Source: Thermomicrobium sp. 4228-Ro (GTDB lineage: Bacteria; Chloroflexota; Chloroflexia; Thermomicrobiales; Thermomicrobiaceae). Taken from it: a stretch of DNA of 64,000 nucleotides. Shown in pieces: positions 29,723 to 40,169 of this stretch. Location: positions 843,129 to 907,128 of the forward strand of contig NZ_JAPFQM010000006.1 of assembly GCF_026241205.1 (NCBI RefSeq). Direction: 5' to 3'. The notes beneath the pieces were generated by a model. It ran no database searches and was not told the origin of the DNA. It saw only the letters and a program-made list of their open reading frames with translations. The translations under genes were made by a program, and so were the position numbers. Numbering within the stretch: the stretch's first letter is position 1; each line of letters starts with the position of its first letter.

Positions 29723-30172
29723 ATGTCGGACGTCGGCCGCCGTCACTCGCTTCTCGGCAGCTCCGGCAGCCGCCGAAACTGGTTGAAACGCCTCGCTGGC
29801 ATGGTGGTCAGTGGCGTCCTGTTCCTGATCACTGAGCCACCCGTGCACGGTCAGGCCTCGTGCAGCCAGTGGCACCGCTGCGGCATGTGCGGTTGCCTGT
29901 GTTCCTGTGTCTGCGGCAGCGATTCCGCCTGCCCCTCGGGCACTCAGGAAGGCGGTGCGTGGTGGGCCTGTTGCTTCTCCAGCGGGAGACTCTGGCTCGT
30001 CCGCTCCCTCGACTGCTGCGGTCCGCGGGACCGGCGACCGGCCTGCCCCAGCGGCCGCTCCTGTAACCAGAACAACAGTTGCGGACAGTACCCGTCGAAC
30101 CAGAACTGGTGTCCGAATCCGTCGACCCGAGCAGCCTACTGCACGCGTGCACAGGTGTGGTCGCAATGCTGA
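29723..30172 (+). CDS. Methylamine-dehydrogenase light-subunit-like protein (TTQ type), copy 1
   Basis: The 149-residue protein has a Tat-like signal (SRRNWLKRLAG then a hydrophobic stretch to about residue 45). The mature chain follows the MADH light chain: CSQWHRC, CLCSC, ACPSGT, AWWACCF, RSLDCCG and QNWC. Aligned by eye to the Paracoccus light chain, W80 and W129 match the two tryptophans that cross-link into tryptophan tryptophylquinone, and D97 matches catalytic Asp76. The position of Asp32 is Cys56 instead. There are 18 cysteines against 12 in the classical subunit. With a heavy-subunit-like propeller it should oxidise an amine outside the membrane. The substrate is unknown. ATG follows GAAGGAG. 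Confidence 0.8.
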   Translation: MSDVGRRHSLLGSSGSRRNWLKRLAGMVVSGVLFLITEPPVHGQASCSQWHRCGMCGCLCSCVCGSDSACPSGTQEGGAWWACCFSSGRLWLVRSLDCCGPRDRRPACPSGRSCNQNNSCGQYPSNQNWCPNPSTRAAYCTRAQVWSQC

Positions 30173-30232: not shown

Positions 30233-31537
30233 ATGCGTGACCGAACGCTTCCGACCGTATCGCCGCGACGGACGACTGGCCTACTGCTCGCCTCGAGCGC
30301 TGTCCTGCTGGTCAGCCTCATCGCCGCATCCCTGACCCGAATCGGTGTACCGTCGCGCTCGCTCCCCCATCTGGGTGCCGCACCGAACGCGATCGTCCGT
30401 CCCCTCGTTCTGCTCCCGGTCGGCACCACCGATGACCCGAGACTGGCCCCCCGCACGACCGGGCTCGTTCTCGTCGATGCCCGATCGGGAGCGATTCTGG
30501 ACCGCCACGCGATCGCTGACTCCACCGAGGTCGTGAGCGCCTCTTTCGTCTCGCCCGGCGACCGCATCGTCTTCTACGCCGGCGAGCACACGGGGCCGCA
30601 CGCACGGCTCGAGGTCCGCCGCCTTCCTGGCTGGGATATCGAGTCCGTTGTCCCGATCGACGCCAGTATCCCGCCAGCCCGCGTGCTCGCTGAGCGCTTC
30701 CCCTCGATCAGCGCCTCTGACCCGACGCTCCTCGCGTTCGCAGCCGAACCGCAGGGACGGTGGGCTGCCGTCACGTTCTGGTCGCTGATGGCGCCCAAGC
30801 CCGACGGTCCATCCAGCCAGCTCGTGTGGGTGACCATGGTGGACCTCGAGCGTGCCGCGTGGGCTGGGTGGGCCCACCCGCTCCCCGCGAGCCAGGCAGC
30901 TTCGCTCGTAGCCCTTCCCGACCGTATCCTGGTGCTCGGCCACGAGCTGCGGACCTCGAGCCGGCGCAGTGTCGGCACGGTCGTCGCGCTCGACCCGCAG
31001 AGCGGTGAAACGCTCGGCCAGCTGACCTTGGAGAGTGCCTCGACGACGGTCAAGCCGCTGGGAGAGGGCCTGGGCGACGAGCAAGCCACCTTCTCGACCG
31101 CGCTCGACCCCGTTCTCTGGAACGGCCAGCTGTTGGTGGTGACCACCGACCTGGAAGGGTTCGTCATCGACCCCAGTGCGCTCACCGTCACCGCGCACTA
31201 CCCACCGCTCGCGGACCGGCTCGTCGCCGCCGGACGACCCTTCATCACGGGAGATCGGCTGGTCGTCGGCGGTGGTGCGGTGCGCGTGATCGATATCGCG
31301 TCGTGGCGACTGCTGGCCACTTACCCCTTGCCGCAGATGCCGGAGACCTGGTGGATCGCCGCCGGCCTGGTCGATCAGGAGACGTTGCTCGTGACCGGCA
31401 CGCGCGAGGGCTGCCTGCGGCACCTGGATCTGGCGACGGGTCGTCTCAGCGCGCCGCTCGCGTGCGGCTTCCTGGTCGACTATCCTTCCCCGCTGTTCGG
31501 CTGGCCAGCCTTCTTCTCAGGCTCGAGCGGTCCCTGA
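30233..31537 (+). CDS. Beta-propeller protein, heavy-subunit-like, copy 1
   Basis: The 434-residue protein has an N-terminal export/anchor helix (TGLLLASSAVLLVSLIAASL) and repeated propeller strands (TGLVLVDARSGAILDRHAI, ARLEVRRLPGWDIESVVPID, WVTMVDLERAAWAGWAHPLP, VVALDPQSGETLGQLTLES). It occupies the place of the methylamine dehydrogenase heavy subunit, 61 bases after the light-subunit-like gene with its own CGGAGG site. Near the end two cysteines (EGCLRHLD and PLACGF) are spaced C-x16-C, as in all four intact paralogues. Similarity to MauB is at fold and context level; sequence homology is not proven by eye. Confidence 0.75.
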   Translation: MRDRTLPTVSPRRTTGLLLASSAVLLVSLIAASLTRIGVPSRSLPHLGAAPNAIVRPLVLLPVGTTDDPRLAPRTTGLVLVDARSGAILDRHAIADSTEVVSASFVSPGDRIVFYAGEHTGPHARLEVRRLPGWDIESVVPIDASIPPARVLAERFPSISASDPTLLAFAAEPQGRWAAVTFWSLMAPKPDGPSSQLVWVTMVDLERAAWAGWAHPLPASQAASLVALPDRILVLGHELRTSSRRSVGTVVALDPQSGETLGQLTLESASTTVKPLGEGLGDEQATFSTALDPVLWNGQLLVVTTDLEGFVIDPSALTVTAHYPPLADRLVAAGRPFITGDRLVVGGGAVRVIDIASWRLLATYPLPQMPETWWIAAGLVDQETLLVTGTREGCLRHLDLATGRLSAPLACGFLVDYPSPLFGWPAFFSGSSGP

Positions 31538-31546
31538 AGAGACCGG

Positions 31547-32219
31547 TTGCAGAGAGGAGTTCTCCGATGCTCGCTCGCTGTACTGGACGTGCCGATAGCC
31601 GGCCGGTCTCCCGCCCCCCTCGTCGAGCTTCTCGTGCTCGTGATCGTCTCCTTTCCTGCTCTCGCCGCGACACCACTGCTGCGTCCCAACGATCGGCTGG
31701 CTGCCCGTCCCGAGCCTGCGCCTGCACTGATCCTCGCGCAGACGGCTACGCACTCGCTCGCACTCGACGCCCGCAGCGGCCAGATCGTCTCCCAACAGCC
31801 TGGCACCTCGGCGATCCTCGCCGCCGATCCCGGTGGCCGGCTCGCCCGCTCCATCACCGACGATCGGGTGACTATCTCGCGCCTCCCGAGTTGGTCGACC
31901 GTCCATGTGCTTTCGATCGACTCGGAGATACCACCCGCTCAGGCAGTGCGACGCGCCTTCCCAGCTCTCGGTGACGACTCCCCTCGTCCCTACGCAGCCG
32001 AGGTCTCACCGGACGCCCGGTACGCCGCCGTCCGGTTCGTCTCGGTGGCGCCGGGACCTTCCAGCCGGTGGGTCCTCTGAGTCACCACTCTGGACTTGGA
32101 GCGTGGCACCTGGGCGAGTTGGGCCCTCCCGGTTCCGGGTGCGCACTCTGCGTACCCGACGAGCGAACGCGATCCACCCGCCCGGGGACACAGCGATCCT
32201 GGCCGTCTGCCCGCTCGGC
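31547..32219 (+). pseudogene. Decayed heavy-subunit-like propeller
   Basis: This frame aligns with the N-terminal third of the neighbouring propellers: HSLALDARSGQIVSQQPGTS, VTISRLPSWSTVHVLSIDSE, IPPAQAVRRAFPALGDDSPR. It stops at TGA 32078-32080 where the paralogues have tryptophan (RWVL-stop-VTTLDLERGTW), continues in frame for the conserved ASWALPVPGAHSA, then loses similarity near 32170. The C-terminal two thirds, including the C-x16-C pair, are missing. It follows copy 1 in the same unit, and promoter P2 of the next propeller starts at its end. It is evidence of duplication and loss in this family. Confidence 0.8.
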
Positions 32220-32282: not shown

Positions 32283-33653
32283 GTGTCCGACATCACCCGC
32301 GCGCACCCGCATCGCACCGGCTACGGCAGCCGTGGCAGCTTGCTCGAACGCCTCATCGCCGCATTGGTCAGCGGTGTGGCGCTCCGGCACCCTCGACACG
32401 CCATCACCGCGAGTGCCGCTGCACTGGCCGTCAGCCTGTTCCTCGTCCTCGCGCTCGCCCTCTCCCGAACACCGGCGGGCCTGCTGCACACCGCGGGCCA
32501 CGGGGCACCGGACCAGTCTCGACCGAGACTGCTGACGTTCGCAGCCGAACCGGCTGACGCCATGACTGGCATCTTCGGGAGCCGGCTCGTGCTCCTCGAT
32601 CTCTCGACCGGTGAAGTCGTCGACTCCTACTCCGATGCGTCCGACGTGAGCGCAGCTGCACTCTCGCCCGCTGGTGACCTCGTCATCCTCAAACGTGGCG
32701 AGCTGGCTGGTGAGACGTGGCGGGACCGGCTCGAGGTCCGGCGCATACCCGACTGGTCGCGCGCGGCAGTGCTGCCGCTCGACTCCAGGATTCCCCCGGT
32801 CCGCGCGCTGGCTCGAGAGTTCCCCGCGGCAGCCACGGAGCCTCCCGTGCTGCAGCGGATGGTGATCGCCCCATCGGGCACCTGGGCCGCTGCGTGGCTC
32901 ACCTCGACGACCGAAAGCTTCCCCGGGGGCGGCGGCAGCTTCATCACCTGGATCACCACGCTCGACCTGGCCGCTGGCAGCTGGGCGACATGGGCGCTTC
33001 CCCTACCCGGTGCGCAAGCTGCCAGCCTTCTCGCGTTACCCGACAAGCTCGTCGTCATGAGTTCGGGGATCTCGTCGCCCCGGCAACCGACCGTCGCCAC
33101 GCTCCTCCTGGTCGATCCGGCGACCGGTCGCATCGAAGCGAGACAGGAACTCGCGCCGCTCGAGTGGACCGCCAAGCCAGCACGGCACGAGCCGACCCTC
33201 GTCACCTACCCGAGCGCGCTGCCGCCAGCCCTGTGGGGCACCCAGCTGGTAGTCGTGACCGAAGACCTGCAGGGTTTCGTCCTGGACGCGCAGACGCTGG
33301 CAGTCCACGCCCGCTACCCAGCACTGTCGGAATCGCGCCGCGTCGGCTGGCAGGTGCTGGTCAGCGGTGCCCGTGCGGTGCTCGTCGGGTACGACGAGGT
33401 CCTCCTCGTCGACCTCCACCGGTGGTCCGTCGAGCGTGCCTATCCTTTGCCCCACCGTGCGGAAAGCCTCTGGCGACCGGTCGGCATCGACCACGAACAC
33501 CGCACGCTCTGGCTCGTCACCACCGGAGACGGGTGTCTCTACCGGTTCGCGTTCGACCGGGGAGTCCTCTCGGAACCGCTCCGCTGTGGACTCGCTGCCG
33601 GTTGGCCCCATCTGACCGAGGGTTGGCCGGTGAGTAACGCCGCGGCCCCTTGA
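32283..33653 (+). CDS. Beta-propeller protein, heavy-subunit-like, copy 2
   Basis: The 456-residue protein has an N-terminal membrane/export helix (AITASAAALAVSLFLVLALA) then propeller repeats: SRLVLLDLSTGEVVDSYSDA, RLEVRRIPDWSRAAVLPLDS, ITTLDLAAGSWATWALPLPG, LLLVDPATGRIEARQELAPL. The ending DGCLYRFAFDRG then PLRCG gives the C-x16-C pair. It starts with GTG behind CAGGAGAG, has its own ECF-type promoter, and lacks a light subunit in its own unit. It could share one made elsewhere in the cluster. It is most like copy 1 and the decayed copy. Confidence 0.72.
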   Translation: MSDITRAHPHRTGYGSRGSLLERLIAALVSGVALRHPRHAITASAAALAVSLFLVLALALSRTPAGLLHTAGHGAPDQSRPRLLTFAAEPADAMTGIFGSRLVLLDLSTGEVVDSYSDASDVSAAALSPAGDLVILKRGELAGETWRDRLEVRRIPDWSRAAVLPLDSRIPPVRALAREFPAAATEPPVLQRMVIAPSGTWAAAWLTSTTESFPGGGGSFITWITTLDLAAGSWATWALPLPGAQAASLLALPDKLVVMSSGISSPRQPTVATLLLVDPATGRIEARQELAPLEWTAKPARHEPTLVTYPSALPPALWGTQLVVVTEDLQGFVLDAQTLAVHARYPALSESRRVGWQVLVSGARAVLVGYDEVLLVDLHRWSVERAYPLPHRAESLWRPVGIDHEHRTLWLVTTGDGCLYRFAFDRGVLSEPLRCGLAAGWPHLTEGWPVSNAAAP

Positions 33654-33748: not shown

Positions 33749-34198
33749 ATGGTATCCGCCGACCGGCTGCAGGCGCCGAACGACCCGCCCGCTGAGCGGA
33801 CCGACGACCGGTCCAACCGTCGCTCCTGGCTTCGCCGCTTCCTCGGCTTCCTGCTCACGACAGCCACCCTGTTGGTCGATCCACCTTCGACCAACGCCCA
33901 GAGCTGCAGTGACTGGTTCCGCTGCGGCATGGGTGGCTGCCTCTGCTCCTGCCGGGGCGGAAGCGACTCTAGTTGCCCACCCGGTACCGTGAACGGCACG
34001 AGTGCCTGGTATGCCTGCTGCTACGATCGGGCACGCAATAAGGTCTTTTTCGTCCGCTACACCGATTGCTGTTCGAACACGCAGCCCCCAGCATGCCCAA
34101 GTGGTTGTTTCTGCTCGCAGAGTGCGCAACCGAGTTGGTGCGGGTCGGCCGGAAGGTACGTCGTGTGCACGCGCGCCGTCCTCGTCGGAGTGTGTTGA
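33749..34198 (+). CDS. Methylamine-dehydrogenase light-subunit-like protein, copy 2
   Basis: The 149-residue protein has a Tat signal (NRRSWLRRFLGFLLTTATLL). The mature part has CSDWFRCGMGGCLCSC, SSCPPGT, AWYACCYD, VRYTDCCS and QPSWC. W87 and W130 match the TTQ-forming pair of the Paracoccus light chain, D106 matches Asp76, and the Asp32 position is Gly. The SCPPGT segment is nearly identical to NCPPGT of the classical subunit. It has 16 cysteines, including all 12 aligned positions judged by eye plus extras. ATG 33749 follows GAGGAGG. The partner propeller starts 22 bases later. Confidence 0.83.
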   Translation: MVSADRLQAPNDPPAERTDDRSNRRSWLRRFLGFLLTTATLLVDPPSTNAQSCSDWFRCGMGGCLCSCRGGSDSSCPPGTVNGTSAWYACCYDRARNKVFFVRYTDCCSNTQPPACPSGCFCSQSAQPSWCGSAGRYVVCTRAVLVGVC

Positions 34199-34220: not shown

Positions 34221-35687
34221 ATGCTGGACGGATCCGTCACTCGCTCTGCTTCGCACCTCCTCGCGCGCCTGTGGATCGCCCTCGTCGTGATGCTGGCTCT
34301 CGCCAGCCCTGGCTCGCCAGCCGCTGCCACGGATCCGAAACCGGTCGTCGTCGCGCTGAGCGGGCCGGATGCCGAGGAGGTCGCCATCCTCGACCCACGC
34401 AGCGGGACTGTCTTCAACCGGGTGCCGAACCGTGGTCAGGCGGTCATGCAAGTCTTTCTGGCTCCAACGGGCGATTTGGCAGCGGTGAAGGTCATCGAGG
34501 AAGGCCCGACGCCACGGGAGTACCTGGAGATCCGCACACTGCCCGATTGGACGCTCCGGACACGCGTCACGCTCGAAGCGATTCCACCGCTGCAGCCCTC
34601 GGAGGGGACGACACCCGGGCCCGTCCGTGACCCGCAGTTGGCATTCGCCTCGTTCTCGCCCGATGCGCGGGAGGTCGCGCTCGCCTTCTTCGCGACCGGG
34701 GAAGTCGCTGGCTGGGGCGTCCCGCACCTCGTGGTGACCGGCTTCGACCTCTCCTCCGGCCGGTGGGCGGGCTGGGCACGGTTGCTCGGTCCCGCCGACT
34801 ACGCCTGGCTCTTCCCGCGCCAAGACCGCTTGATCGTCGTCGCCCGGTCCGTCCTCCCACTCCGGACCGGTCAGGTCGCCACGGTCTACGCGCTCGACCG
34901 TACCTCGGGAGCCGTTCTGGGTACCCAGCCGATCCAGCATCTTGCTCCCGGGATACTGCCGCCCCGGGGCCAGACCGTACCCTCGACGACCGCAAGCATC
35001 GTTGGAGCGATGATGCACGGTGACGAGCTCGTCCTGCTCACCACCGATGTCGCGCGCATCGTCCTGGCAACTGACTCGCTCCGTATCCAGCGCGTCGATC
35101 CGCCGCTGACCCGCGAGCTCACCGCCCGCAGCGCGGTGCTCCTCCGCGACCGGCTCGTCGTGCAGTCGATGCTGGACGAGCTGCTCGTCGTCGACCTCGA
35201 CGCGTGGACAGTACGCTCGACGTACCAGCTGCCGCGGCCTGATCCGGAAGCGTACTGGACATTCTCCTGGGTACTGGTCGGCGCCGATCCGGACGGTCAC
35301 TGGATCTACCTCGGCGATACCGGAGAGGGGTGCCTGCGCCGCTGGAACCTCGACACTCTCGAACTCTCGACGCCGTCGGCCTGCGGGCTCGACCTGCGCC
35401 CCGAGTGGGTGACGTACTACGGATGGCCAGCATTCGCCTCGGGCACGAGCGAAGCGACGGCCACGCTCCCCGCGCCAGCCCGCCAGCCAACCGGTACCGT
35501 CGGCGTGGCGGCGCTCGCTCTCGGCGCCGTGTCGCTCCTGGCCGTGCTGGCACTGCTCGTAGCCTCCAGCACGCTGCGCCGGAGCGTCACCAGTGTCCGC
35601 AGCCGGATCCCCGCGTGGGCCCGGTTTCCGGGTAACGCACCGCCTGCTCAGGAGACCAGCCCGGCGAGCGGCTCGCCGGGAACCTGA
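34221..35687 (+). CDS. Beta-propeller protein, heavy-subunit-like, copy 3
   Basis: The 488-residue protein has a signal helix (LWIALVVMLALASPGSPAAA), then propeller repeats (EEVAILDPRSGTVFNRVPN, EYLEIRTLPDWTLRTRVTLE, LVVTGFDLSSGRWAGWARLL, TVYALDRTSGAVLGTQPIQH). A C-terminal transmembrane anchor follows (VAALALGAVSLLAVLALLVA), so the propeller should sit outside, tethered to the membrane. The paired cysteines (EGCLRRWN and PSACG, C-x16-C) are kept. It lies 22 bases after light-subunit copy 2, with AGGAGG in between, so the two should be produced together. The C-terminal anchor is absent in copies 1 and 2. Confidence 0.75.
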   Translation: MLDGSVTRSASHLLARLWIALVVMLALASPGSPAAATDPKPVVVALSGPDAEEVAILDPRSGTVFNRVPNRGQAVMQVFLAPTGDLAAVKVIEEGPTPREYLEIRTLPDWTLRTRVTLEAIPPLQPSEGTTPGPVRDPQLAFASFSPDAREVALAFFATGEVAGWGVPHLVVTGFDLSSGRWAGWARLLGPADYAWLFPRQDRLIVVARSVLPLRTGQVATVYALDRTSGAVLGTQPIQHLAPGILPPRGQTVPSTTASIVGAMMHGDELVLLTTDVARIVLATDSLRIQRVDPPLTRELTARSAVLLRDRLVVQSMLDELLVVDLDAWTVRSTYQLPRPDPEAYWTFSWVLVGADPDGHWIYLGDTGEGCLRRWNLDTLELSTPSACGLDLRPEWVTYYGWPAFASGTSEATATLPAPARQPTGTVGVAALALGAVSLLAVLALLVASSTLRRSVTSVRSRIPAWARFPGNAPPAQETSPASGSPGT

Positions 35688-35926: not shown

Positions 35927-36361
35927 GTGGACGACACGATGGACACCCGTGCATCACCGAATCTGGCGAGTGACACGACGACACGGCGGACGTGGATCCG
36001 CCGCGCGCTGGCCCTCGCCGCTGCAACGGTCGCTCTCCTCCGCGAGCCGGAGCTGGCCCGTGCCCAGAGCTGCAGCGACTGGTTCCGCCGCGGGATGTCC
36101 GGCTGCCTCTGCTCTTGCCGGGGCGGGAGCGACCAGGCCTGCCCGAGCGGGACGGTCTCGAGTACCCGGGCCTGGTACCTGTGCTGTGACGATCCGGCTC
36201 GTAACCGCGCGTCCGTCGTCCGATCCATCGACTGCTGCACGACCGGGAGCGTCCCCAGCTGTCCCAGCCGCTGCCGCTGTACGAACGGAGGAGCGCAACC
36301 GAACTGGTGTGACTCGGGGAACGTCGTGTGCACGCGTGCCGTTCTGGTGGCGACGTGTTGA
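35927..36361 (+). CDS. Methylamine-dehydrogenase light-subunit-like protein, copy 3
   Basis: The 144-residue protein has a Tat signal (TRRTWIRRALALAAATVALL). The mature part is CSDWFRRGMSGCLCSC, QACPSGT, AWYLCCDD, RSIDCC and QPNWC. W83 and W127 match the TTQ pair and D102 matches Asp76; the Asp32 position is Ser. Uniquely, the second cysteine of CSDWFRC is Arg55, leaving 15 cysteines, an odd number, so the C29-C61-type disulphide of the classical subunit cannot form in the same way. The start is GTG 35927, well spaced from GGAAGG; an ATG four codons on is possible. It heads the unit with the MauE-fused propeller. Confidence 0.8.
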   Translation: MDDTMDTRASPNLASDTTTRRTWIRRALALAAATVALLREPELARAQSCSDWFRRGMSGCLCSCRGGSDQACPSGTVSSTRAWYLCCDDPARNRASVVRSIDCCTTGSVPSCPSRCRCTNGGAQPNWCDSGNVVCTRAVLVATC

Positions 36362-36385
36362 GATCGGGAAGCTGGAGGTGCACCG

Positions 36386-38191
36386 ATGGAAAGACCGGGC
36401 GCTGGGAACTGGATGCGCGCACGGACCGTCTTCCTGGGATCGCTCGCCGTCATCCTGGTCCTCGGCCTCGGAGCGCTGGCCGCCACGCTACGCTGGTCGG
36501 CTACCCGTGACGCCACCGCTGCTCCTCCGGATCGGCCCCTGATCGTCTCGCTCGCGCGACCCGACGCGAAGGAGATCGTCGTCCTCGACCCGCGCACCGG
36601 TCAGGAACTGCACCGGGCACCTAACCCCGACCAGGGGTACCTCGAAATCTTCCTCTCGCCGGACGGTCGCCGCGCCGCTGTCGCGCACGACAGTCCTGAC
36701 GGGTCGACCGACGTCCTCGAGATCCGATCGCTCCCCGCCTGGTCGCTCGAGGCCTCCCTGCCGCGCGGAGCGTCCGCCCCACCGCTCGCCGGCCTGGCGA
36801 GCCGCCAGCCCGACCTCGTCGAAAATCTCGGCCTCGCCTTCGCTGCGTTTTCTCCGGACGGCACGCTCCTGGGACTCGCCTACTACGGCGGCAGCGGTGA
36901 CATCCCGCAACTCGTCGTCACCCTGTACGACCTGGAACGGCAGGCGTGGGCCTCTTGGGCTACCAGCCTGGGCGCCAGCAGCTACGCCTGGCTCTTCCCC
37001 GGTCGCGATCGGTTGCTGGTCGTCAACCGCTCCGTCCTCCCGCAGTGGACGAACTCCCTGGGCGACGTCTTCGTCCTCGACCAGCGGACGGGTGCGGTGA
37101 TCGCCCAGCAGACGATCCCGCGGCTCGTCACGGCCTACTTGCCGCAGCGGGGTCGTCTCGCACCGAGCGCGTCCCCCTCTCTCGCGACTCCCCTGCTCGT
37201 CGGCGAGGAGCTCTGGTTGGTCACGGCTGACCTGGCCCGCTTCGTCCTCGATGCGCACACGCTGGAGATTCGCCGGACGGATCCGCCGCTCGCCCGGGAC
37301 CTCGCCGCGCAGGCTGCGACGCTCGCCGCTGACCGTCTGGTCGCCTTTTCCGTGGAAGCGTCCGAGCTCCTCGTCGTCGACCCGGCTCCCTGGCACCTGA
37401 GCGCGACGCACCGCTTGCCCGAGAGAGGCTTCTCGTCCGACTGGCTCCTGGTGGGCGCCGAGCCCGGTGAGCGTACCGTGTACGTCGGTGCGATCAGCGA
37501 CGGATGCCTCTGGCGTGTCCCGCTCGACAGCGGGACGCTCTCGGCACCGCTGGCCTGCGACCTCTACCTGGAGTTTCCGTACATCACCTACTATCACTGG
37601 CCGGCTTTCTCCCCCGGCACAGCTGCGCCGGCCGGCGCGACCGGCCTGCTCCGGCACCTTCCCCAGTCGGCAGCTGGGGTCGCGACCGCCCTGCTCGCTG
37701 GCACCTTCCTCGTCGCCACGCTCGGCAAGCTCTTCGCCCTCGCCGATGCTGCGCGCCTGCTCGCTACCGTCCTCCCGCGACTCCGCCGTTGGGCACGCCC
37801 GGCCGCGCTCGGGACCGTCGCGCTGGAACTCCTCACCGGAGCCCTGTTGCTGGTACCGGGCACCCAGCGCGCTGGGCTCGCGCTCGCCGCGACCGCTCTC
37901 CTCGCCTTCACCGCGTTCGGCCTCGTCGGAGCCCGGCGCGCGCCAGGCGCGGACTGTAGCTGCTTCGGCAACCTGATGCCGGCGAAGCTCGGTCGCGGGA
38001 CGCTCCTGCGCAACGTGACTCTGCTCGCGCTCGTCGCAATCGCCTGGCCAGTGGCAGCGGCACCGTCCCTTGCCGACGTGACCGTTGCCAGCCTTCTCGT
38101 GCTCTCGGTCCTGGTCGTGTCCCGCGTGGCCGCGACCGTGGCCAGTCTGCGCCGGTCGGCTGGAGGAGTCACGACGCGCCATGCTGCCTGA
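36386..38191 (+). CDS. Propeller fused to MauE-like membrane domain, copy 4
   Basis: Residues about 13-35 form a signal anchor (VFLGSLAVILVLGLGALAA). Residues 45-410 are a heavy-subunit-like propeller (KEIVVLDPRTGQELHRAPN, DVLEIRSLPAWSLEASLP, VTLYDLERQAWASWATSLG, DGCLWRVP with PLACD, C-x16-C). Residues 425-595 are a four-helix MauE/DoxX-like domain with the CxCFG signature (GADCSCFGNLMPAKLGRGTL). In classical mau clusters MauE is a separate membrane protein needed with MauD for disulphide formation in the light subunit. Here it is covalently attached to a propeller. The gene overlaps the mauD-like gene by 11 bases. I know no described protein with this fusion. Confidence 0.8.
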   Translation: MERPGAGNWMRARTVFLGSLAVILVLGLGALAATLRWSATRDATAAPPDRPLIVSLARPDAKEIVVLDPRTGQELHRAPNPDQGYLEIFLSPDGRRAAVAHDSPDGSTDVLEIRSLPAWSLEASLPRGASAPPLAGLASRQPDLVENLGLAFAAFSPDGTLLGLAYYGGSGDIPQLVVTLYDLERQAWASWATSLGASSYAWLFPGRDRLLVVNRSVLPQWTNSLGDVFVLDQRTGAVIAQQTIPRLVTAYLPQRGRLAPSASPSLATPLLVGEELWLVTADLARFVLDAHTLEIRRTDPPLARDLAAQAATLAADRLVAFSVEASELLVVDPAPWHLSATHRLPERGFSSDWLLVGAEPGERTVYVGAISDGCLWRVPLDSGTLSAPLACDLYLEFPYITYYHWPAFSPGTAAPAGATGLLRHLPQSAAGVATALLAGTFLVATLGKLFALADAARLLATVLPRLRRWARPAALGTVALELLTGALLLVPGTQRAGLALAATALLAFTAFGLVGARRAPGADCSCFGNLMPAKLGRGTLLRNVTLLALVAIAWPVAAAPSLADVTVASLLVLSVLVVSRVAATVASLRRSAGGVTTRHAA

Positions 38192-38744
38192 GTGGATCCT
38201 CGTCGTCAGCTCCTCGCTCGCGTGGCTCGCCGTGCTCGCGCTGGCCACTATCGTGTCCCAGCTCGCCCGGCGTCTCCAGCTTCTCCAGCAACAGGTCAGC
38301 GGCAACGCGGGCCAAGAGCGAGTGCTCGAGAGTCTCGGCCAGCCGGTCCCGCCGCTCGCCCTCGCTGGCCCCGCGTCCGATCAGCTGATCCTCGGCGTGC
38401 CCCCGGCGGCGCCAGCGGTCGTCCTCGCTCTCAGTCAGCGCTGCCCACCGTGCGCAGGCTTCTGGGCACAGTCGGCAGCGCTCGCAGCGTCGCTCGCTGC
38501 GCGAAATGTCCTGCTGGTCCTCGCCGTACCGGAGCGCGCAGTTCCGGCAGAAGCCGCACACCTGCCCCGGCTCGTCGGCGAGGCAGCGCTGGCTGCACTC
38601 GGTCTCTCGAGCTTCCCGAGCCTCGCGTTCGTCGACGAGCGTGGTCACCTGCGGGGACGTGGGGTCCTCCGGAGCGTCGAGGAAGTCCCGGAGATCGTCA
38701 GCATGCTCCTGCAGCCCACGGTCGACACGGAGGGAAAGTCATGA
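38181..38744 (+). CDS. MauD-like membrane-anchored thioredoxin
   Basis: The 187-residue protein has one N-terminal transmembrane helix (WILVVSSSLAWLAVLALATI) and a periplasmic-type thioredoxin fold with active site SQRCPPCAGFW and the cis-proline region LSSFPSLAFVDERG. MauD in methylamine-utilising bacteria has this layout and a CPxC centre, and is required to form the many disulphides of the light subunit. The 11-base overlap with the MauE-containing gene mirrors the usual mauE-mauD order. A general thiol-disulphide role is possible, but the context favours light-subunit maturation. Confidence 0.8.
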   Translation: MLPEWILVVSSSLAWLAVLALATIVSQLARRLQLLQQQVSGNAGQERVLESLGQPVPPLALAGPASDQLILGVPPAAPAVVLALSQRCPPCAGFWAQSAALAASLAARNVLLVLAVPERAVPAEAAHLPRLVGEAALAALGLSSFPSLAFVDERGHLRGRGVLRSVEEVPEIVSMLLQPTVDTEGKS

Positions 38745-38812: not shown

Positions 38813-39406
38813 ATGGTCGACGTGCTCGGCCCGACCATGGCAGAGCGACCACGCCGGCACGCCGTGGCGACCGCCTTCCTCCACGTGCTGGCCAGCAGCG
38901 CCGGCGGTGCGCTGACCGGCGGGGTGCTCGCACTGCTCGGCACGCTGCTCCTGCCAGCTGTGGTCGCCACGCAGCGCCCGGCAGTCCTACTCGCCGCAGT
39001 GGTCACCGCCCTCGCGATGGCCGAGATGGTGACCGGCTGGCGGAGCCCGGTCTGGCGCCAGGTCCCGCCCGCACGGTTCCACCGCGGTCCCCTCTTCGCG
39101 AGCGCAGCCTGGGGATTCGAGCTCGGCACCGCTTTCACCACCCGCTGGCCGACGCTCCAGCTCGCCAGTCTGGGTCTGGCGACGCTCCTGTCACGCGACC
39201 TCGTACAGGGTGCAGCCCTCTTCCTCGCGTTCGGCCTCGCGCGCGGTCTCGTCACTGCCGGAGCGGCGTATGCGCTGTGGCGGCCTCCTTGCCCGGTGGG
39301 TGCGCTCGGTGTCCTGAACCTGCAGCGGCTGGCACGAGCGGGACCGGTGGCTCTGGCCTTCGTCTGTGCAGGCCTCCTGCTGTACACTGCGGGTACGGCC
39401 TCCTGA
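38813..39406 (+). CDS. Membrane protein of the amine-dehydrogenase cluster (MauF-like position)
   Basis: The 197-residue protein has about five hydrophobic helices (SSAGGALTGGVLALLGTLLL, PAVLLAAVVTALAMAEMVTG, LARGLVTAGAAYALW, GPVALAFVCAGLLLYTAG) and a loop WRQVPPARFHRGPLFASAAW. The charge and loop pattern recalls DsbD/CcdA-type membrane proteins, the class to which maturation proteins such as MauF have been compared, but no redox CxxC pair is seen. It sits after the mauD-like gene, before the sigma factor. A 20-codon frame at 38742-38804 ending in a lipobox-like ASGC separates them. The functional call is inference from position. Confidence 0.5.
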   Translation: MVDVLGPTMAERPRRHAVATAFLHVLASSAGGALTGGVLALLGTLLLPAVVATQRPAVLLAAVVTALAMAEMVTGWRSPVWRQVPPARFHRGPLFASAAWGFELGTAFTTRWPTLQLASLGLATLLSRDLVQGAALFLAFGLARGLVTAGAAYALWRPPCPVGALGVLNLQRLARAGPVALAFVCAGLLLYTAGTAS

Positions 39407-39428: not shown

Positions 39429-40169
39429 ATGCGGTCCAGCCTCACTCCAGCCCGGCTCAGTCTCGTCCTGCTCCTCGTCCTCCCGTCGCTCGGCTACCTG
39501 CTCCTCGACGACCGGCCGGCACCACCGCACCTCTTCCTCCACCGGATGCCGCCACCGCTGCTCCACGCCGGCCGCCGGAGACGGCCACCGCGGGATCCTC
39601 CTGATCCCGCCGAGCCCGCTCAGCCAGAGCCATCCCCGTCCCGAAGCGCTCCCGACGACACCCTCTTCGCTGATCTCTACGGCGAGCATGTGGAGCACCT
39701 GCGAGCTTACTTGCGCCGCCTCGGTGTGCCGCCTTCCCTCCATGACGACCTGATCCAGGAAACTTTCGCGCGCGCCTGGGCAGCTCGCGCCCAGTTGCGC
39801 GACCGCGCAGCGCTGGCCACCTGGCTCAACCGGATCGCCCAGCGCTCCTGGTTCGACTGGTTGCGCGCCCAACAGCTGGAGCATCGGGCGTTCGGCCGTG
39901 TACTCCGCGAGGCCTGCCCCCGAGGCGCGGAGGATTGGTCGGCCGACCGCCTGCTCGTCGAGCAAGCGCTGGCGAAGCTCCGCGACCGCGACCGGGAGAT
40001 CCTGTACCTCCGCTGGGAGGCCGAGCTCGGGTTCGACGAGATCGCCGACCTCCTCGGTATCTCCCCCACCGCCGCCCAGCGCCGCGCGCACCGTGCGCTC
40101 GAGCGGCTCAAACAGATCCTCGCCCGACTGGAGCGCACGGGCGACTCCGGTAACGAGGTACAGCGGTGA
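39429..40169 (+). CDS. ECF sigma factor with hydrophobic N-terminal extension
   Basis: From about residue 78 the protein is a normal ECF sigma: region 2 (FADLYGEHVEHLRAYLRRLG, DDLIQETFARAWAAR, LNRIAQRSWFDWLRAQQ) and region 4 (LAKLRDRDREILYLRWEAEL, FDEIADLLGISPTAAQRRAH). The first 77 residues are extra: a transmembrane-like stretch (LSLVLLLVLPSLGYLLL) and a P/R-rich linker. If translated from ATG 39429 it would be membrane-tethered; a start at ATG 39546 would drop the helix. It lies directly behind the MauE/MauD-like genes and is the natural candidate for reading promoters P1-P4. No anti-sigma gene is adjacent. Confidence 0.8.
   Translation: MRSSLTPARLSLVLLLVLPSLGYLLLDDRPAPPHLFLHRMPPPLLHAGRRRRPPRDPPDPAEPAQPEPSPSRSAPDDTLFADLYGEHVEHLRAYLRRLGVPPSLHDDLIQETFARAWAARAQLRDRAALATWLNRIAQRSWFDWLRAQQLEHRAFGRVLREACPRGAEDWSADRLLVEQALAKLRDRDREILYLRWEAELGFDEIADLLGISPTAAQRRAHRALERLKQILARLERTGDSGNEVQR

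Follow-up and report, generated by a model that had tools for sequence, protein, structure and literature searches.

The window analysed here is a stretch of 64,000 nucleotides from Thermomicrobium sp. 4228-Ro (assembly size 3.07 Mb), and all of the genes discussed lie on its forward strand. An ORF at 36386–38191 encodes a protein of 601 residues in which a propeller domain is followed by a MauE domain. It begins with ATG, six bases downstream of a Shine-Dalgarno-like GGAGGT (36374–36379), runs for 601 codons with no internal stop, and starts 24 bases 3' of a gene for a TTQ-type light chain with a Tat-type leader (35927–36361; PF02975). Its end overlaps by 11 bases (38181–38191) a gene for a MauD-like thioredoxin with a CPPC motif (38181–38744; hhalign to the MauD group, probability 97, E = 7.6e-11), as the original prediction had stated, and the identical overlap occurs in T. 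roseum. The MauD-like protein consists of an N-terminal anchor and a thioredoxin-like domain with CxxC; one orthologue lacks a cysteine. A MauF-like membrane protein is encoded at 38813–39406 (hhalign to P. denitrificans MauF, probability 95, E = 2e-8, covering MauF 106–262), and 22 bases 3' of it lies a sigma-70 family gene (39429–40169) conserved in T. roseum. The latter gene is kept in HRbin27 too, and its product has a hydrophobic stretch at the start.

Upstream of the fusion lies an array of light-chain and propeller genes. Two further light-chain paralogues are found at 29723–30172 (PF02975, E = 3.6e-6) and at 33800–34198, the latter within an ORF from 33650 (PF02975, E = 1.2e-11; PDB MADH light chain, E = 1.3e-13), so that three light chains score above the PF02975 cut-off. 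The window holds four intact propeller genes and one broken. Two propeller paralogues carry no MauE (30233–31537 and 32283–33653), and the broken one between them (31589–32080) is intact in T. roseum. The remaining paralogue (34221–35687; 488 aa, 41% identity) carries at its tail (35487–35624) a gapless alignment to MauE helix 1, and of 500 shuffles one scored as well. It is probably a former fusion that has lost most of its MauE half. A hydrophobic anchor is present at the N-terminus of every propeller.

A joined reading frame may arise from a missed stop or frameshift that merges two separate genes. At such base composition stop-free frames are not rare: when the last 588 nt of the gene were shuffled 2000 times, 225 of the products were free of stops. 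A chance open frame is thus not improbable, and the open frame taken alone is weak evidence of a fusion. However, the fusion is found free of stops in six independent assemblies, one of them a finished type-strain plasmid, which constitutes proof that two genes have been joined and reduces an artefact of assembly or sequencing to a negligible probability. Beyond the window, five Thermomicrobium genomes carry the intact fusion at 38–87% identity, full-length matches of 87, 41, 40 and 39% among them, and a sixth copy is cut by a contig end; neither the window frame nor any intact orthologue has a stop between the domains. In T. roseum DSM 5159 the same fusion of 596 aa is encoded on the finished megaplasmid (TRD_RS11420, WP_012642748.1), where the annotation names a MauE/DoxX protein only and leaves the propeller half without a name. 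Thus the claim of one continuous 601-residue protein with propeller and MauE parts stood up to the examination of the frame, the Pfam match and the orthologues.

In a class-wide search of 158 genomes, full-length relatives were restricted to Thermomicrobium, and proteins of other genera matched the MauE part alone. A pattern scan of about 85,000 species, with one genome per species, likewise returned Thermomicrobium loci alone; the scan reaches close relatives only. The fusion is a real, conserved and genus-specific trait of Thermomicrobium. The genome paper of T. roseum mentions neither methylamine nor mau genes and does not discuss the fusion (PMC2615216), and our literature search found no report of a propeller-MauE fusion or of Thermomicrobium mau genes. 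It represents an uncharacterised form within Mau-type systems, whose function we infer below. Long MauE frames in sister-family genomes were considered as additional propeller fusions and rejected, since those translated proved to be MauE-thioredoxin fusions. In other families of the class, thioredoxin domains are fused to the C-terminus of MauE, with two or three of them in the longest frames (loci L013, L016, L018, L022–L025, L027 and L033).

The identity of the C-terminal half is clear. PF07291 (MauE) matches residues 430–553 with 69.6 bits and E = 4.1e-19, the curated cut-off being 27 bits, and the predicted CxCFG signature is present as CSCFG at residues 524–528 (37955–37969), invariant in the MauE alignment. 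The invariant K, E and CxCFG and the nearly invariant RN of a 16-protein MauE set are all kept by the fused MauE, and the same residues are retained in all complete fusions. The domain (residues about 430–583; 37673–38134) had been described as a four-helix one. This has to be revised, because both fused and free MauE show five membrane helices. In the model of the MauE half built from the 16-protein alignment (mean pLDDT 86.7) five long helices are seen, and the CxC lies in the loop that connects helix 3 to helix 4. The closest solved fold to this model is NACHO/TMEM35A (Z 12.7, rmsd 2.3, 118 residues), a likeness that is suggestive, since among helical bundles a Z below 13 does not decide the matter. 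A kinship with the VKOR/DsbB fold was rejected, with Z just 5–6.

Both halves of the fusion evolve under dN/dS below 1 (propeller 0.34–0.38, MauE 0.42–0.66; 0.04 in the neighbouring lpdA), which indicates purifying selection that is weak relative to lpdA. It might be supposed that the MauE half is now a passive membrane anchor or scaffold which holds a single propeller at the surface of the cell and whose redox role is lost or unneeded. Cells without an outer membrane require anchored enzymes. In the comparison of the window with HRbin27 the dN/dS of the MauE half exceeds that of the propeller (0.66 versus 0.38), and what the upstream paralogue at 34221–35687 retains is the remnant of the first helix alone, both of which suit such a passive part. 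Nevertheless, the hallmark residues have survived in every complete fusion, each propeller already possesses an anchor of its own, and PF07291 matches number one per Thermomicrobium genome searched, always the fused copy, which is thus the only MauE of the genome and adjoins MauD-like and MauF-like genes. A purely anchoring role is therefore considered unlikely.

The N-terminal half is more difficult to name. An anchor preceded by a positively charged N-terminus occupies residues 15–33 (36428–36484; helix 6–43 in the model), and the propeller domain comprises residues about 50–406 (36533–37603). None of the Pfam or NCBIfam profiles names the first 415 residues. An AlphaFold model of the whole fusion (pLDDT 71.6) gave an N-terminal helix, a propeller and a helical domain, in agreement with the domain order originally proposed. 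When the propeller was used in a fold search with VIA-align, the best 21 rows were all MADH or AADH heavy chains (Z 20.1–21.4), with unrelated propellers next at 19–20, a margin of about 1. By sequence, none of the 19 propellers tested matched the Pfam heavy-chain profile at E up to 1, and hhalign against heavy chains gave a marginal probability of 18%. Heavy-chain identity was also sought in a PDB profile search with the 19 propellers, which returned generic WD-type repeats alone, and a comparison of the non-fused propeller of G367 (outside Thermomicrobium, the one genome of the phylum in which such a light chain turned up) with the Thermomicrobium set lent no support. Hence of the heavy subunit assumed at the outset, the predicted fold and the gene neighbours speak for the assignment and the sequence tests, negative or marginal, do not; the domain is best termed heavy-chain-like, which is less than a proven heavy chain.

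The light chains of the window resemble those of MADH and AADH. In a numbered alignment of Thermomicrobium and G367 light chains, W57, D76 and T122 are present in 16 of 16 and W108 in 15 of 16; all three window light chains keep the four residues. The Asp32 of MADH, on the other hand, is replaced in all 16. In MADH, TTQ is the product of MauG, and the step comes after translocation (PMC7876137). A search of six Thermomicrobium genomes and G367 yielded no member of the CCP_MauG family, the P. denitrificans control being positive. Because no MauG-family protein was found there and Asp32 is replaced, TTQ may not form; the light chains would either be matured by another enzyme or carry no TTQ.

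Several features of the array point to recombination and partial decay. Some light chains are without certain cysteines; in the copy next to the fusion (35927–36361) Cys29 has become Arg, and the cysteine is kept in the HRbin27 orthologue. The segment 29848–32156 is 95.5% identical to T. roseum while its flanks are 81–84% identical, and synonymous divergence spans 0.03 to 0.72 along the cluster. The lost cysteines, the block of high identity and the uneven divergence show that the array is a recombining mosaic which is partly decaying. Very low synonymous divergence was also observed in the MauF-like gene and the first propeller gene. One may then ask whether the array is an amine dehydrogenase at all, or whether the light chains carry no TTQ and form, together with the propellers, surface proteins of another purpose that are diversified by recombination. 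The missing MauG family and Asp32, the high dN/dS with the mosaic structure, the lack of any recognised electron acceptor gene beside the array and the weak sequence kinship to heavy chains would all be accommodated by such a role. What it leaves poorly explained is the near-complete retention of W57, D76, T122 and W108 and the presence of a complete Mau-type assembly set, and we regard it as improbable, if slightly less so than the passive anchor.

The orientation of the fusion in the membrane bears on how the MauE half could act. Positive charge precedes the first helix in all six fusions, as in export anchors, which would place the propeller outside the cell. In fused and free MauE, Lys and Arg are found mostly in loops 1–2 and 3–4 and in the C-terminal tail, with few in loops 2–3 and 4–5. 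By this distribution, which is a rule of thumb, the predicted arrangement is a propeller outside with the CxC loop and the C-terminus cytoplasmic. It had been proposed that the fusion holds the MauE cysteines at the contact between light and heavy subunits. This is doubtful, since a CxC predicted on the inside and a propeller on the outside lie on opposite faces of the membrane, which argues against such a position. Cargo of the Tat pathway is folded before export. The Tat-type RR leaders on the light chains, combined with folding before export, would imply that disulphides are formed before or during export, which fits a cytoplasmic CxC. Moreover, a lone fused MauE per genome searched, set against three light-chain genes in the window, suggests that it acts in trans for some of them.

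Taken together, we favour, with a probability of roughly 0.55, a membrane-anchored, multi-copy system of amine-dehydrogenase type in which the fused MauE serves as an assembly factor. TTQ-type light chains would be exported by way of their Tat-type leaders and would pair with extracellular propellers as heavy-chain-like partners. At the last propeller of the array an adjacent mauE may have been joined in frame, which would have turned an assembly factor into a portion of a subunit. Together with the MauF-like protein and the MauD whose gene overlaps it, this fused MauE would then form the sole MauE machinery found in the genome. MauE would span the membrane from outside to inside, with the CxCFG loop on the cytoplasmic face, and may help disulphide formation and assembly of the light chain that belongs to it and, acting in trans, of the others.

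If the propeller is outside, the MauE N-terminus is assigned to one side of the membrane by its conserved attachment to an exported domain, and the side of the MauE cysteines becomes directly testable. A bolder possibility, which we consider speculative, is that the fusion works as a naturally occurring reporter of topology: the N-terminus of MauE would lie outside and the CxC on the cytoplasmic face, MauE and MauD would act on the light chain before its export by the Tat system or in the course of it, and, given the missing MauG and Asp32, a MauG-free route would lead to a tryptophylquinone-type enzyme. In any case, the gene set raises the question of how TTQ-type light chains mature without MauG.

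Compared with known systems, the locus of T. roseum (TRD_RS11420) is likewise fused, has identical neighbours and differs in nothing substantial. Within the MauE/DoxX family, for which NACHO/TMEM35A is the nearest solved fold, the same K, E, CxCFG and RN are shared, on a four-helix core with a fifth helix; in Thermomicrobium the N-terminus bears a propeller, whereas in the sister-family genomes it is the C-terminus that bears thioredoxin domains. In G367 the genes are separate, in the order MauE, MauD, light chain, MauF-like, propeller. A second MauE gene of that genome (L051:15670–16029) lies some 7 kb away from the Mau-type cluster. The aau clusters of AADH share with Thermomicrobium the B-E-D-A set, the similarity of the light chain and the lack of mauG in the cluster as depicted, but they have a separate MauE, retain Asp32 and adjoin c-type cytochromes. 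The mau cluster of P. denitrificans (mauFBEDACJG) includes, as in Thermomicrobium, a light chain, a propeller subunit and relatives of MauE, MauD and MauF, with MauE directly 3' of the propeller gene. In contrast, Thermomicrobium has a fused MauE, several light chains and propellers and a replaced Asp32, and neither MauG nor an amicyanin gene was recognised in it. MauE is indeed separate, as had been asserted of known systems, in P. denitrificans and in two AADH clusters, where mauE lies 1–5 bases after the heavy-chain gene. With mauE placed directly after the heavy-chain gene, an in-frame joining of the two would have been an easy step.
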